From Acidaminococcaceae bacterium (GTDB taxonomy: Bacteria; Bacillota; Negativicutes; Acidaminococcales; Acidaminococcaceae), in NCBI GenBank assembly GCA_017443165.1, contig JAFSOW010000054.1, positions 1 through 12,098 on the forward strand: DNA of 12,098 bases. The letters run 5' to 3'. Below are positions 989-9,097 of the stretch, piece by piece (position 1 is the stretch's first letter; every line of letters begins with the position of its first letter). Under the pieces are notes generated by a model. That model was not told the DNA's origin, ran no database searches, and worked only from the letters and a program-made list of their open reading frames with translations. The translations under genes and the position numbers were made by a program.

Positions 989-2917
989 TCATGGACGATC
1001 CCCGTCCGGGCGGTTCACCGGGCAGTCGCCCGCTTCTTTGATGACTGCGGGGCACGGCAGGCAGCGCCTTGCGTAGGGGCAGCCTTCATGGCCGTTCTGC
1101 TTGCGGATTTTTTTCAACAAGGGTGAATGTTCCCAATACTCCGTAATGGAACCGTACGTTTCCTGTGCGTCCAGATACGGGCAAGGCGTGAAACTGCCGT
1201 CTGCCTGCACGGCGAAGAACCAGCATCCCGCCTCGCAGCCGCGCCCGATGCCCCGGTTGCCGTTTCTCTTCTCGTCCGCGCCGCCCATCACGGCGCGCAG
1301 CGGCGAAAAGCAGTTTTCTACCGTAAGCTCCATGCGGCTTTTTGCGTCAGTGCCCGCCGTTTCGTCTGTCCCGGCCGCGGCAGCCGGTACGCCGTCCTGC
1401 AGTTCGTTTGCTGCGTCGACGTTCTGTGCTTCCTTCGCGTCGCCGTCCTGCAGTTCGTTTGCCGTGTCGCCGTTCCGGAGGTTCTCTTTTTGCCACGCGT
1501 TTATTATTTCTGCCGCTGCGATAATCTGTCCACGGTCAGGATTTTCCCTGCGCAAACCGGGACTGCAGGGCTTCATGCCCGTGATGATGAGTTCCTGCGC
1601 GCCCGTTTCTCCGGCGAGACGGATGACGCGTGGCAGGTCCTGCGCATTGCCCCGGTGCATGAACCAGCGGAGACGGAACCCGGCAAAATCCAAAGCGCGA
1701 AGCGTTTCCGCATTCGCCACCCAGCCGGTTTCCCCGTCCATGTCCATAAGAAAGCTGTCTGCTCCCGCGGCAATCATCTGTTCCAGCGCTTCCCGCGATA
1801 CCGGTTCCGCCAGTGATACTTCCGCACGGATGCTGTTTTCCCTGCACACGCCCAGAAGGCGGTCAAACTCTTCATAGCCTTCAACGCCCATAAAACGCGC
1901 CCGGCGCAGGCGGTTTTCCCCGCACTGGGCAAGGAGCCGCAGGGCGCTGTCCGCGGAAAGCGCCCGCTCCCCGTCCCTCAGGTAAAAATCCACGCGGCCG
2001 GGGAATTCATAGGCGTCAAAATAATTGTGGTTGATATAGGGCGTCTGCTCCAGGTAGGCTTTTGCTTCGGTAATTTTTCCATCCTTGTAGTTCAGCTTGA
2101 AATAGTTGATCAGCGTCTGGCGGAAGGGGTCCGCATCGGGGCGGATGCGGATCCAGCGCCGCAGCGCTTCGCCTTTTTCCGGAAGGCACAGCCCCGCATC
2201 TTCCAGGCGCATGATAAATTTGTCGACGATGAGCGGATGCCGCCAGCGTGAAAAGACTTCGATGCCGATCTTGGGCAGCACGCCGTCCGCGCCGAGGTCG
2301 ATATTGACGGCAATTTTCTGAGATTCCTTCCACGGCTCCAGCGCAGACGCAAGTTCTGCCGTATCGCCCTGCCAGCCGATGGCGGTCAGACCCGGGAAAA
2401 TGCTCTCCCAGGAAGGGAACAAAATCACGAGGCGCATGATGTCCAGTTCGCCCCGGCTCGTCATGGTGCCGATTTGCTTGATAAACGCTTTTTCGGGGAG
2501 ACGCTCCGTCACCCTGTCCAGCGGAGCGCGCAGGCGTCTCGCCCGTTCTTCGCCCAGAAAGGCCGGCAGCACATCATCCCAGAATGTCCGGTAATCTTCC
2601 TCACCCACATTGGCAAAGAGGCACGGCTCGATTCGTTTGCCCGTTGCGGCGGCCCGGGAAAATTCCTCGTAGTCGATTTCGTACCACAGCGCTTTCACCT
2701 TGGGAATGTTTTCCTCGTCGATATTCATGATGTAATCCACATACGCCGCGGGATTCCCCAGCCGCACTTCCAGCCCCGCGCCGTAGCTTTCCGTTTCACC
2801 GTACTGCGCCTCCACTGACGAGAGCGCCGCCATACACTCTGCCGAGACGATTTCCGGCATGGGGTGGCGGAGGAGATGCGCCAGCCAGTTTTTTACCGCA
2901 AGTTCCTTTTCTTCCAT
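989..2917 (-). CDS. SPASM-domain protein with cysteine-less radical-SAM-like middle region
   Basis: The 642-aa product has three visible parts. Residues 1-300 form a module I do not recognise. Residues about 305-450 look like a radical SAM/TIM-barrel fold (RVDFYL, then alternating helices and strands ending ELIITGMKPCSPG). However, the expected CX3CX2C after the first strand is replaced by LRDGERALSADSALRLLAQC, so it cannot bind the SAM cluster in the usual way. After a low-complexity linker (481-530) comes a SPASM-type Fe-S domain with cysteines at 561, 565, 579, 613, 619, 622 and 632, including GRGCEAGCW and the ADGSFTPCPYLD motif. SPASM domains hold auxiliary [4Fe-4S] clusters in peptide- and protein-modifying radical SAM enzymes. 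The ATG at 2917 has GGAGGT at 2931-2936, with long 13-nt spacing. It has no co-transcribed partner here. A modification or scaffold role is inference. Confidence 0.8.
   Translation of the reverse strand: MEEKELAVKNWLAHLLRHPMPEIVSAECMAALSSVEAQYGETESYGAGLEVRLGNPAAYVDYIMNIDEENIPKVKALWYEIDYEEFSRAAATGKRIEPCLFANVGEEDYRTFWDDVLPAFLGEERARRLRAPLDRVTERLPEKAFIKQIGTMTSRGELDIMRLVILFPSWESIFPGLTAIGWQGDTAELASALEPWKESQKIAVNIDLGADGVLPKIGIEVFSRWRHPLIVDKFIMRLEDAGLCLPEKGEALRRWIRIRPDADPFRQTLINYFKLNYKDGKITEAKAYLEQTPYINHNYFDAYEFPGRVDFYLRDGERALSADSALRLLAQCGENRLRRARFMGVEGYEEFDRLLGVCRENSIRAEVSLAEPVSREALEQMIAAGADSFLMDMDGETGWVANAETLRALDFAGFRLRWFMHRGNAQDLPRVIRLAGETGAQELIITGMKPCSPGLRRENPDRGQIIAAAEIINAWQKENLRNGDTANELQDGDAKEAQNVDAANELQDGVPAAAAGTDETAGTDAKSRMELTVENCFSPLRAVMGGADEKRNGNRGIGRGCEAGCWFFAVQADGSFTPCPYLDAQETYGSITEYWEHSPLLKKIRKQNGHEGCPYARRCLPCPAVIKEAGDCPVNRPDGDRP
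1390..1473 (-). repeat. Two-copy in-frame repeat (51-bp period) in the SPASM protein linker
   Basis: A 22-bp stretch is repeated exactly at 1390-1411 and 1441-1462, and the match extends imperfectly to 33 bp per copy (1390-1422 and 1441-1473). The period is 51 bp, or 17 codons. The encoded units are NGDTANELQDG and NVDAANELQDG (residues 482-492 and 499-509), in an acidic, Ala/Asp-rich linker between the barrel and the SPASM domain. This looks like linker growth by slippage or duplication. Confidence 0.85.
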
Positions 2918-5578: not shown

Positions 5579-6508
5579 CTAACTCTGCTCCCTGCCGGAA
5601 AGATAGTTCGCCGCCAGGGATCCCGAAATGTTGTGCCATACGCTGAAGATTGCGCCGGGAATCGCGGCGGCAGCACCGAAATGCAGCATGGCAAGAGAGG
5701 CCGCAAGCCCGGAGTTTTGCATACCGACCTCGATTGCGACGGCTTTGGCCCTGGCCATATCTATACGGAGCGCTTTGGAAAGGGCGAACCCGATCGCGTA
5801 CCCCAGCAGATTGTGGCAAATCACGACGGCCATGATCAGCAGCCCCGTTTCCTTAATACGGCCGGCGCTGACGGCAACCACGCCGCCGACAATGAGGAGA
5901 ATGACCGTAATCGACACCAGCGGCAACAGTTTCACAATGCGCCGGACAAACGCCCCGAAAAACGCGTTCACCGCAAAACCGGCCGCAATGGGCAGTATCA
6001 CAACTTTAACAATGGACAGCATCATGGCTGTGAATGATACTTCAATCCACGCCCCCGCCAGCTGCCAGGTAAGGAACGGTGTCACAATGGGCGCCAGAAG
6101 GGTGGTCGTCATGGTCATGGATACAGAAAGGGCCACATCGCCGCGGGCCAGATAGGTCATCACATTGGAGGAGGTTCCGCCGGGGCAGGTACCCACAAGG
6201 ATAACCCCGACAGCCAGATCCGGCGGAAGGGCAAACCCTTTTGCCAGCACCCATGCCAGGAGCGGCATCACGGTAAACTGCGCCAGCACTCCGATACACA
6301 CATCCCCCGGATGTTCCAGGATGCGCCGGAAATCCGCTGCGCGAAGGGTTGTGCCCATGCCGAACATGACGATTCCCAGCAAAAGCGCCACGTGCGGCGC
6401 GATTCCGGCAAACGTCTGAGGCGCGGCCAGGGCTGTCCCGGCCATCAAAATGACCAGTACGGCCATGTATTTTGACACGAAATCCCCGATCCGTTCCAAA
6501 ACTTTCAT
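5579..6508 (-). CDS. Bile acid:sodium symporter family (BASS) transporter
   Basis: A 309-aa inner-membrane protein with about ten hydrophobic segments, importing an organic anion with sodium. The sodium-site residues known from the Neisseria meningitidis ASBT structure (from memory) fall at the same numbers here: Q77, S114, N115, S128, T132, E260, V261, M263 and Q264. They lie in motifs CPGGTSSNVMTYLARGD (109-124) and EVGMQNSGLA (260-269). Sodium coupling is therefore well supported. The substrate is not: BASS proteins carry bile acids, pantothenate precursors, 2-oxo acids and other anions. The ATG at 6508 has AAGGAG a few nt upstream. The gene is divergent from the bilin-reductase-like operon, with 284 bp between starts, which suggests but does not prove a shared substrate or shared regulation. 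Confidence 0.93.
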   Translation of the reverse strand: MKVLERIGDFVSKYMAVLVILMAGTALAAPQTFAGIAPHVALLLGIVMFGMGTTLRAADFRRILEHPGDVCIGVLAQFTVMPLLAWVLAKGFALPPDLAVGVILVGTCPGGTSSNVMTYLARGDVALSVSMTMTTTLLAPIVTPFLTWQLAGAWIEVSFTAMMLSIVKVVILPIAAGFAVNAFFGAFVRRIVKLLPLVSITVILLIVGGVVAVSAGRIKETGLLIMAVVICHNLLGYAIGFALSKALRIDMARAKAVAIEVGMQNSGLAASLAMLHFGAAAAIPGAIFSVWHNISGSLAANYLSGREQS

Positions 6509-6727: not shown

Positions 6728-6756
6728 TTGACACAGGGAACATGCGATACTATTCT
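6728..6756 (+). promoter_or_regulatory. Promoter of the bilin-reductase-like / flavoprotein operon
   Basis: A perfect TTGACA (6728-6733) is followed after 17 nt by TATTCT (6751-6756), with a perfect TATAAT overlapping at 6756-6761. Transcription would start around 6763-6768. This puts the upstream ATG at 6742 inside the promoter and supports the start at 6793. Confidence 0.6.
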
Positions 6757-6792: not shown

Positions 6793-7497
6793 GTGGGAAT
6801 GTATGAGGAAAACGAAAAAAAGGTACAAACCATTTTAGAGCGGGGCGTCGGAATCCTGGCCCGGAATTACGGCGTGCGAAAACTGGACGCAGGCGATTTT
6901 TCCGCCCCGGTAACGCTCAATACACAGTTCCGCATCGCCCATTATGAAATCGAAAACGTGGGGCACCTGATGACGATGTACACGGAAAACAATCCGCAGC
7001 TGCTGATGGCGACGTATACATTGACCCCCTATTATAAAAAGCTGCCCCTGATCAGTTCCGATTTTATTTTCAACGGGGACGGCGGCATGTTCCTGATCGA
7101 GATTTATGAACTGGTCAAAAACAGGGAAGCGGCCCCCTTCCAGGCATGGATCCGGAAATACGCGGAACGCTTCCGGGATCTGGCGGAATTCGGGGACATC
7201 CCGACGGAACCCTGCTTCTATGACCCGGTCCGCCCGGTTTATGTGTGCAAAAAAAGATTCCCCGGCCGGGACCAGGACGCAATTCAAAATCTGATTGACA
7301 TTATGAAAATTTTTATTGCACAGGAAAAATCGGAGAAACGGCTGGAAAAAGCGGACGCGGCGGAACAGGAAGCGATCCAGCGGAAATTTGTGGATGACCT
7401 GATCGACCAGAATGGTGTTTCCACACGGGTCTGGGTGAAAGAACACGGCGCGGACTACGTACGCCGGTTTTTCCATGAGATATTTTTCGGCGTATAG
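6793..7497 (+). CDS. Ferredoxin-dependent bilin reductase-like protein (PcyA/HY2 fold)
   Basis: Bilin reductases use ferredoxin electrons to reduce double bonds of linear tetrapyrroles without a flavin. The 234-aa product has the family's length. Compared with remembered cyanobacterial PcyA, the segment TQFRIAHYEIENVGHL (44-59) matches PQFRKMHLELAKVGKGL, keeping the catalytic Glu (E52, PcyA E76). TPYYKKLPLISSDFIF (78-93) matches the PLYGLPLFGCDIVAG region, keeping the catalytic Asp (D90, PcyA D105). The C-terminal STRVWVKEHGADYVRRFFHE (210-229) then IFFGV matches [21 protein letters not shown] then VLFDV. PcyA His88 appears replaced (Ala73 or a neighbour) and a 9-residue insertion follows E52. 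GTG 6793 has GAGGTG 7 nt upstream; ATG 6799 is the alternative. It leads the operon, 14 nt before the first flavoprotein. The fold is well supported, the substrate unknown. Confidence 0.75.
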   Translation: MGMYEENEKKVQTILERGVGILARNYGVRKLDAGDFSAPVTLNTQFRIAHYEIENVGHLMTMYTENNPQLLMATYTLTPYYKKLPLISSDFIFNGDGGMFLIEIYELVKNREAAPFQAWIRKYAERFRDLAEFGDIPTEPCFYDPVRPVYVCKKRFPGRDQDAIQNLIDIMKIFIAQEKSEKRLEKADAAEQEAIQRKFVDDLIDQNGVSTRVWVKEHGADYVRRFFHEIFFGV

Positions 7498-7511: not shown

Positions 7512-8795
7512 ATGAAAAAAGACACCGTGATCGTGGGCGCGGGCCCCGCCGGCCTGATGGCGGCGCTGAAGCTGGCGGAACGGGGCATAACGCCCACCGT
7601 AATTGAGATGAAGAACAACATGGATAAGCTCAACAGGGCCTGCTCCATGCAGTTTATCATCGACGACGAATACGAAGCGGATGTCCTCAAAATCAAAGGG
7701 AAGAAGCTGGTCTTTACGAAATGCGGGCTGGAAGTTCCGTATACCGGGAAGCTGGTTCCGCTTTACAATAAGTATTACCATTCGCCCAAGGATCACATCA
7801 TCCGCTTTACGAGAAATGACGGGAAGGATCCTTTTTCCTATAAGTTTGACAAACAGTTTTTATTAAAGAGCCTCTTTGACGCCTGCGCCGCGAAGGGCGT
7901 CGAGTTCATGATGGGAACCCTGGTCCTCGGCGGAAAGGACAAAGGCGACGGGGTGGAGCTTACCCTCCGGCAAAAAGGGAAAAAGCTTGCCCTGACCTGC
8001 GATAAGCTGCTCATTGCAGAGGGTGTGAACGCATCGGTCTGCGGCAAATTTGGTTTGAATAAGCAGCGCCTGGGACAGGCCGGGGACAAAGTGCTCGATA
8101 TGGGCATGGCCTACAGCATGAAATATCTTATGGAAGGAATTACGGGCGTTGAGAACAACAGCTGGAACCTGTACTACGGCAACGCGTACCATTCTCAGAC
8201 GGCCTGCATCATCGGCCCCAGCCTGGAGGGGGATGGCATCTTTGAAGTGACCATTACCGGTTCCCCGGGCCTGATGCCAACGAAGATATTTGAAGAATTC
8301 ACTACCGCGAGCCCCATGGCTGAACATTTCAAAACCGCGAAACTGATCAAGAAGAACGGCTGCGGGCTGAAACCTTTCATGGCCATGAAAGAACCCTGCC
8401 GCGGCAATGTCATGGCCATCGGCGACTGCGCCGCCATGGTCGAAGTGGAAACCCAGGGAGGCCTCCTGTGCGGATACCGGGCCGCGAAAGCAGTGGCGGA
8501 GGAGCTGGAAGGCAGGGACGGTTTCGCGGCGTATACGAAATGGTGGCAGGATTCCTTTGAGTTTAACAGCGACGATTACATGGAGGTAAGCAAGGGCTAC
8601 GCGCTGGCTTTTGTCTATACGGACGATGAGCTGGATTATCTCTTTTCCCTCTGCGAAGGACATAACCTGCACGGCACCTACAGCCAGTACCTGACCCCGA
8701 AGCTGATCTGGGACTGCATCCGGCTTTCTTCGGAAAAGATCAGGGCGGAGCAGCCGAAAATCTATGCGAAGATGCATATGATGGGACAAGTTTAA
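7512..8795 (+). CDS. FAD-dependent oxidoreductase, geranylgeranyl reductase-like (paralog 1)
   Basis: A 427-aa flavoprotein. The N-terminal Rossmann motif is VIVGAGPAGL (6-15), with Glu32 ending the second strand as FAD-ribose ligand. The second FAD motif AIGDCAAMVEVETQGGLLCG (302-321) matches the GD-A-A-x(5)-G pattern of the geranylgeranyl-reductase/ChlP branch of the PHBH-like superfamily. NRACSMQF (41-48) is a conserved element shared with paralog 2. No NAD(P)-binding domain is evident, so electrons may come from the ferredoxin encoded next. Family members reduce isolated C=C bonds in isoprenoid chains; the substrate here is unknown. The C-terminal 90 residues are Trp/Tyr-rich and specific to the two paralogs. 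ATG 7512 is preceded by AAAGGAGG with 5 nt spacing, 14 nt after the bilin-reductase-like stop. Confidence 0.85.
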   Translation: MKKDTVIVGAGPAGLMAALKLAERGITPTVIEMKNNMDKLNRACSMQFIIDDEYEADVLKIKGKKLVFTKCGLEVPYTGKLVPLYNKYYHSPKDHIIRFTRNDGKDPFSYKFDKQFLLKSLFDACAAKGVEFMMGTLVLGGKDKGDGVELTLRQKGKKLALTCDKLLIAEGVNASVCGKFGLNKQRLGQAGDKVLDMGMAYSMKYLMEGITGVENNSWNLYYGNAYHSQTACIIGPSLEGDGIFEVTITGSPGLMPTKIFEEFTTASPMAEHFKTAKLIKKNGCGLKPFMAMKEPCRGNVMAIGDCAAMVEVETQGGLLCGYRAAKAVAEELEGRDGFAAYTKWWQDSFEFNSDDYMEVSKGYALAFVYTDDELDYLFSLCEGHNLHGTYSQYLTPKLIWDCIRLSSEKIRAEQPKIYAKMHMMGQV

Positions 8796-8914: not shown

Positions 8915-9097
8915 ATGGCTCATGTTATCTCTGATGAATGTGTCGGCTGCGGCACCTGCGCGACGTTCTGCCCGGTGGGGGCGATTTCCCAGGGGGAGGA
9001 CGGTTATTACGATGTAGACCCCGCTGCCTGTGTGGACTGCGGAAGCTGCGAAAAAGCCTGCCCTGTCCAGGCCATCGCGGCGGAAGAGAAAGGATGA
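8915..9097 (+). CDS. 2[4Fe-4S] ferredoxin, 60 aa
   Basis: A clostridial-type ferredoxin carrying low-potential electrons in the cytoplasm. Two complete cluster motifs are visible: C9-x2-C12-x2-C15-x3-C19-P and C39-x2-C42-x2-C45-x3-C49-P, arranged with the usual internal pseudo-two-fold symmetry (CVGCGTCATFCP and CVDCGSCEKACP). The length is normal for the family. ATG 8915 has GAGGAGG (8900-8906) 8 nt upstream; a longer reading from 8870 would place 15 unlikely residues over the repeat region and ribosome site. It lies between the two FAD paralogs and ends 10 nt before the next start, so it is most likely the private electron donor for the operon's reductases, including the ferredoxin-dependent bilin-reductase-like protein. 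That partnership is inference. Confidence 0.95.
   Translation: MAHVISDECVGCGTCATFCPVGAISQGEDGYYDVDPAACVDCGSCEKACPVQAIAAEEKG

Follow-up and report, generated by a model that had tools for sequence, protein, structure and literature searches.

A bilin-reductase-superfamily protein heading a ferredoxin and flavoprotein operon in gut anaerobes: a candidate reductase of linear tetrapyrroles

The contig JAFSOW010000054.1 of an Acidaminococcaceae bacterium (assembly GCA_017443165.1), whose 12,098 nucleotides we analyzed and refer to as the window, encodes at positions 6793-7497 a protein, here called P0001, that is almost certainly a member of the ferredoxin-dependent bilin reductase (FDBR) superfamily. 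Judged by its sequence it belongs to this superfamily without being a PcyA, and its standing as an FDBR enzyme is putative. The explanation that best accommodates our analysis, and to which we give about an even chance, is that P0001 represents a gut-anaerobe branch of the FDBR/RCCR superfamily that would reduce a linear tetrapyrrole with the ferredoxin of its own operon. That P0001 is a catalytic reductase is probable; that its substrate is a linear tetrapyrrole is about evenly balanced. Below, L-numbers denote loci of relatives and G-numbers genomes.

The homology is clearest for the family as a whole. An hhalign comparison of 177 family sequences with 128 FDBRs gave a probability of 97.5 (E 7e-12) over 224 columns, whereas the column-reversed decoy of the same comparison gave 0.2 (E 0.33). 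Among 18 relatives PF05996 matched 5 (best E 0.0013), and among 36 it matched 22 (best E 9.6e-9). The PcyA-type motif strings quoted by the initial annotation are all present in P0001 (Q45-F-R-x2-H50-x-E52-x3-V-G57, L84-P-x4-D90 and T211-R...G219...R-R-F), and a chance match of these motifs is rejected by the hhalign decoy and by the Pfam and fold searches. Against the PDB, phmmer with P0001 placed PcyA chains at E 0.42-1.1, under three unrelated chains; a profile of 18 relatives reached PcyA at E 0.03, and one of 36 at E 0.26, under one unrelated chain. A midpoint-rooted tree of 59 sequences, comprising 15 FDBRs and 44 of the 177 family members and no RCCR or pre-PcyA sequences, separated the FDBRs from the family.

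The predicted structure points the same way. A template-free AlphaFold2 model of P0001 (pLDDT 95.6, pTM 0.91) has a PcyA-type sandwich that is predicted to extend across the whole chain, and all 35 Foldseek matches at E <= 0.001 were FDBR-superfamily proteins. The bilin-reductase fold and homology proposed by the initial annotation are upheld by these matches together with the hhalign result and the PF05996 matches in relatives. The model is not the TIM barrel of the Old Yellow Enzyme proteins BilR and BilV, and the separation from BilR that had been suggested is borne out.

One active-site residue of PcyA can be placed with confidence. Asp90, which was expected to be kept, is present in 177 of 177 family members and was aligned to PcyA Asp105 in 16 of 16 hhalign runs; Glu103 is kept in 176 of 177. 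The catalytic glutamate, also claimed at first to be kept, is doubtful. Glu52 fell on PcyA Glu76 in only six runs (the four restricted to close relatives and the two that set the whole family against PcyA-like sequences alone), on Gln66 in eight and on Arg71 in one, and was uncovered in one; its column holds Asp in 88 and Glu in 71 of the 177 sequences. Met62 lay on Glu76 in eight runs, including those in which the wide family, or its distant branches, was compared with the 128 FDBRs. PcyA has seven strands, and the model strands 44-53, 57-65, 71-79 and 86-94 suit the Met62 register with no added hairpin needed. As for His88, the Thr74 column (Ser in 89 and Thr in 84 of 177) took its place in eight runs, the Ala73 column in two and neither in six; the only histidines of P0001 are at 50, 58, 218 and 228, and His88 is probably not kept. 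The residue pattern of P0001, as aligned, is most likely that of the pre-3 lineage of FDBRs, in which Asp105 is kept, Thr stands at His88 and Glu76 is absent (main text of PMC10151467).

The invariant aspartate and the structural scores both bear on the possibility that the substrate is a cyclic tetrapyrrole derived from chlorophyll or heme (pheophorbide, phylloerythrin or a porphyrin), with a chemistry nearer to that of RCCR or coproporphyrinogen oxidase. The P0001 model does share the RCCR fold, but RCCR scores under PcyA, PebA and PebB and the best FDBRs outscore it, Asp90 falls on the FDBR aspartate in every run, and coproporphyrinogen oxidase depends on oxygen (PMC10151467, main text); we consider such a substrate quite improbable.

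The gene for P0001 heads four plus-strand genes separated by gaps of 14, 119 and 10 bp, as in the ferredoxin/flavoprotein operon described in the initial annotation, and the recognized genes flanking this run on both sides are on the minus strand. Behind it lie two flavoproteins of the geranylgeranyl reductase (GGR) superfamily, about 43% identical to each other, with a ferredoxin between them (Table 1). We assign flavoprotein 2 by TIGR02032 only, because its predicted structure is of low confidence (pLDDT 62.3) and its Foldseek list, although topped by the GGR 3oz2, mixes many FAD enzymes; with both flavoproteins, phmmer against the PDB returned mostly general FAD enzymes. The P0001 gene is under purifying selection: dN/dS is 0.021, 0.059 and 0.057 against the copies of three congeners (L001, L002 and L003), silent sites being close to or at saturation against more distant copies. 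These low values rule out a pseudogene.

We compared 33 loci, 32 with a family open reading frame and one (L008) without; a number of the contigs are short, and the window and L001-L003 are nearly identical to one another. In five of the loci the family gene stands next to the flavoprotein-ferredoxin-flavoprotein cassette: the window, L001, L002, L003 and L055 (L007 denotes this place too). At L055/L007 the family member is 34% identical, its gene lies 3' rather than 5' of the cassette, and flavoprotein 1 is incomplete; the homologue there (L007:2435-4465) spans only the last 225 residues and is fused to an unrelated N-terminal part, perhaps through a rearrangement or a join made during assembly. 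At E <= 1e-30, 1 of 397 genomes of the L007 family has a match to flavoprotein 2, and it is this same genome (at most four candidates being scored per listed genome), and strong matches to flavoprotein 1 occurred in four of the eight genomes behind the loci, the same four that have the cassette. No cassette was seen without a family gene, congeners lacking the gene not having been searched for it. At L053, an EFR1 ferredoxin gene lies 18 bp downstream of the family gene.

Activity, electron donor and substrate are a matter of interpretation, for which we propose the following. The operon ferredoxin, receiving its electrons from fermentation or from one of the two flavoproteins, would pass them singly to a linear tetrapyrrole sitting in the central pocket of P0001; Asp90 would donate a proton, as Asp105 does in PcyA, and every two electrons would reduce one C=C bond. 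As for the GGR-like flavoproteins, they could act on other C=C bonds, either of this molecule or of one derived from it, or they could feed the ferredoxin. The substrate would probably come from the gut (e.g. phyllobilins from chlorophyll, or other bilins of dietary or host origin). As to the donor, the ferredoxin gene in the operon is only suggestive; its company with the two flavoproteins hints that pigments are reduced in the gut without oxygen. A bolder proposal, which we think unlikely, is that this may be the first branch of the FDBR/RCCR/coproporphyrinogen oxidase fold with a pathway free of oxygen-requiring steps. In such a rumen module, a bilin-reductase-like enzyme, a ferredoxin and a pair of GGR-like flavoproteins would hydrogenate either a bilin made anaerobically or chlorophyll, the phytyl part of the latter as well as the tetrapyrrole, and would serve as an electron sink or for detoxification.

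A source of bilins within the cell was sought in 30 genomes, 29 with a family gene and one (G463) with a fragment only, some of them incomplete. The heme oxygenase profile PF01126 matched none of these genomes (that of the window, G000, is 73% complete) and 3 of 14 controls. HutW (TIGR04107) over its cut-off was likewise found in 0 of 30 genomes versus 1 of 14 controls; below the cut-off every one of the 30 genomes and 14 controls matches, and since we take such matches to be HemN/HemW-type relatives, only those over the cut-off count. No canonical heme oxygenase was thus found in the 30 genomes, HugZ/IsdG-type heme-degrading enzymes and BilR not having been searched for. Because none was found in the carriers examined, the substrate, if it is a bilin, is probably imported.

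Several observations weigh against the reduction of a linear tetrapyrrole by P0001, or against the kinship on which that idea is built. PF05996 gave no match to P0001 itself up to E 10, so that the gathering score was not reached, and none in its genome (73% complete). In hhalign, the closest 60 sequences alone reached a probability of only 2-33 against the FDBRs, and an 18-sequence alignment (17 close ones and L007) one of 40; since both are weak, the sequence link runs via the distant branches. His88 of PcyA, as the initial annotation had it, is probably replaced in P0001 (by Thr74, on the alignments), and Glu76 is perhaps replaced too. None of the family genes is linked to a heme oxygenase, unlike those of typical pre-PcyA clusters, and 17 of the 32 loci, some on short contigs, have none of the partners sought. 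Finally, 9 of the 32 loci (L004, L046, L050, L054, L086-L089 and L092) encode DUF1295 (steroid-5alpha-reductase-like) within 4 kb of the family gene, seven of them together with a short-chain dehydrogenase/reductase (SDR), and this points to lipids or sterols too. The bilins and chlorophyll or phycobilin breakdown products that the initial annotation listed as substrates are tentative candidates, other branches of the family lying next to steroid-reductase-like genes.

The DUF1295/SDR operons and the GGR-like genes make a sterol, bile acid or isoprenoid the chief rival substrate: the fold would have been re-used for a non-tetrapyrrole, and the family, alongside DUF1295, SDR, GGR-like and BASS-type partners, would bind a C=C bond of this compound or reduce it. 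The seven loci with an SDR (L046, L050, L086-L089 and L092) also encode a membrane protein of ~207 aa, and five of these have a flavin-reductase-like gene within 4 kb. Across the 30 genomes, 9 of 19 DUF1295 places are within 0.8 kb of a family gene, and at L004, whose family member is a 76% relative of P0001, DUF1295 lies 78 bp upstream. The DUF1295 protein of L054 resembles a solved 3-oxo-5-alpha-steroid 4-dehydrogenase (E 6.5e-4), and the SDR of L087 is matched by PF01073 (3beta-HSD, E 5e-11). Many of the DUF1295 loci are close kin and do not stand for nine independent events; but besides L004, the near relative of P0001, they include three further branches of the tree (L054; L046, L050, L086, L087 and L088; L092), L004 and L089 being outside the tree sample. 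On the other hand, DUF1295, NmrA-type SDR and BASS are broad families whose substrate roles here are putative, and the SDR has the general PF13460 as its best Pfam match and a varied set of PDB matches. Among the structure matches listed there is no same-fold protein with such a substrate; in the window neither DUF1295 nor SDR lies beside the P0001 gene, and DUF1295 gave no match in the genome of the window (73% complete). Overall we regard a substrate of this kind as rather unlikely. The NmrA-type SDR, DUF1295, the ~207-aa membrane protein and the FDBR-like gene recur as a set in genomes around the L005 and L007 groups, and this set looks like a pathway of its own.

P0001 could also be a non-catalytic carrier or sensor of tetrapyrroles, as might be imagined from the two of three PcyA catalytic residues that are replaced or doubtful and from the architecture of some relatives. 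Five of 36 members (P0101, P0109, P0150, P0157 and P0167, identified by alignment) have an N-terminal HD_4-type domain (PF13328) fused to the FDBR-like domain, in those at L081:7408-9066 (552 aa) and L082:169-1893 (574 aa) the fusion is to a C-terminal leucine-rich-repeat-like region, and L044, L045 and L091 show, by eye, an N-terminal hydrophobic stretch. The practically invariant Asp90 and Glu103 and the redox partners co-encoded in several loci argue for catalysis, and we think a carrier or sensor very improbable.

The distribution of the family gene is patchy. In the genus of the window it is present in 4 of 14 genomes, that of the window included; none of the other 47 relatives searched has it, a wider profile adding one weak match (E 9.5e-4), and at the level of the phylum it was found in 1 of 398 genomes, the window's own. 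Elsewhere it occurs in 13 of 299 genomes of the family of L007, 6 of 247 of the family of L004 (one weak) and 10 of 246 of the order of L005 (one already counted in the L007 family), each including the genome named. Carriers comprise Succiniclasticum, one goat-duodenum Acidaminococcaceae, and Clostridiales, Eubacteriales and Lachnospiraceae metagenome-assembled genomes, Limivicinus, Stomatobaculum, Eggerthellaceae, Spirochaetales and, as a fragment, Butyrivibrio. The carriers are generally strict anaerobes. The non-phototrophic anaerobic host surmised in the initial annotation is in keeping with a 99% identical copy in the record of Succiniclasticum ruminis DSM 9236 (L001), a fermentative strict anaerobe; on the strength of this copy we assign the window to Succiniclasticum. 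Contamination of metagenome-assembled genomes is unlikely, as this strain and congeners that are 93, 98 and 99% complete carry the gene. We rejected a phage or plasmid origin: no relatives were found in viral_contigs (by a pattern scan) or in plasmids (searched with P0001 and P0087).

Some loci differ from the rest. L008 (Butyrivibrio sp. XPD2002) has fragmentary similarity, 63% in the best segment, and no open reading frame by the family profile. At L085:1302-3019 the FDBR-like gene lies, by eye, directly 3' of hypB/hypA-like genes (nickel hydrogenase maturation), and L092 has two family genes in one gene set (6136-6366 and 7917-8618), one of them truncated to 76 aa.

Table 1. Features of the window and codons of P0001 discussed in the text
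Feature	Position	Strand	Remarks
P0001, FDBR-superfamily protein	6793..7497	+	intact open reading frame, 234 aa, GTG start; ATG at 6799 possible
GGR-superfamily flavoprotein 1, 427 aa	7512..8795	+	TIGR02032 E 5.9e-19, below curated cut-off
2[4Fe-4S] ferredoxin, 60 aa, two CxxCxxCxxxCP motifs	8915..9097	+	NF058577 over cut-off
GGR-superfamily flavoprotein 2, 427 aa	9108..10391	+	TIGR02032 E 2.1e-22, below curated cut-off
Sigma-70-like promoter match, TTGACA-17-TATTCT	6728..6756	+	upstream of P0001 gene; scan matches no more frequent than in shuffles
BASS/SBF-family transporter, divergent	5579..6508	-	weak association with P0001 gene
Asp90 codon, equivalent of PcyA Asp105	7060..7062	+	177/177 relatives; 16/16 hhalign runs
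Glu52 codon, catalytic Glu of the initial annotation	6946..6948	+	register ambiguous
Met62 codon, likelier equivalent of PcyA Glu76	6976..6978	+	Met in 170/177; on Glu76 in 8/16 runs
Thr74 codon, likely equivalent of PcyA His88	7012..7014	+	on His88 in 8/16 runs

The divergent BASS transporter was rejected as a fixed partner of P0001 within the genus, since L003 has no more than a fragment of it and neither L001 nor L002 has it within 4 kb; at L087 and L088, a homologue with 52-53% identity lies directly beside the family gene. Further off in the window (989-2917, minus strand), a 642-aa protein with a SPASM-like C-terminal part is weakly like the heme-synthesis radical SAM proteins NirJ2 (E 1.2e-4) and AhbD (E 4.3e-4) and has no radical SAM domain match in Pfam.

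Compared with PcyA and the other FDBRs (PebA, PebB, PebS, HY2/phytochromobilin synthase and PcyX), to which its model is about 7-14% identical in structural alignments, P0001 differs in its probable lack of His88 and perhaps of Glu76, in the gut anaerobes that carry it, with no PF01126 heme oxygenase in the genomes examined, and in its linkage to GGR-like flavoproteins and a 2[4Fe-4S] ferredoxin. The initial annotation gave the family as established in cyanobacteria, plants, algae and cyanophages, a range that is out of date: FDBRs of non-photosynthetic heterotrophic bacteria (pre-PcyA, lineages 1-3) were published in 2023 (PMC10151467), so that this part is not new. P0001 resembles them as an FDBR relative in non-phototrophs and, most likely, in the pre-3 residue pattern; the pre-1 and pre-3 clusters typically include a heme oxygenase, an Fe-S protein, V4R proteins and globins (PMC10151467), whereas the P0001 locus has no heme oxygenase. 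The main text of that paper contains no occurrence of Firmicutes, Clostridi or rumen, and our search of open-licence papers, without their supplements, returned nothing on FDBR-like genes in gut anaerobes. A gut-anaerobe branch with these partners, and without a canonical heme oxygenase in the genomes examined, is in no paper we found and may be new. RCCR, which shares the fold, acts downstream of an oxygen-dependent enzyme (main text of PMC10151467). Members of the P0001 family are candidates for reducing pigments or steroids in the guts of herbivores. BilR and BilV, the gut bilirubin reductases named in the texts of PMC10769871 and PMC13252198, belong to the Old Yellow Enzyme family, BilR being a TIM barrel (PMC13252198); the reduction of bile pigments in gut anaerobes may be a function that they and P0001 have in common, carried out by proteins of different folds.
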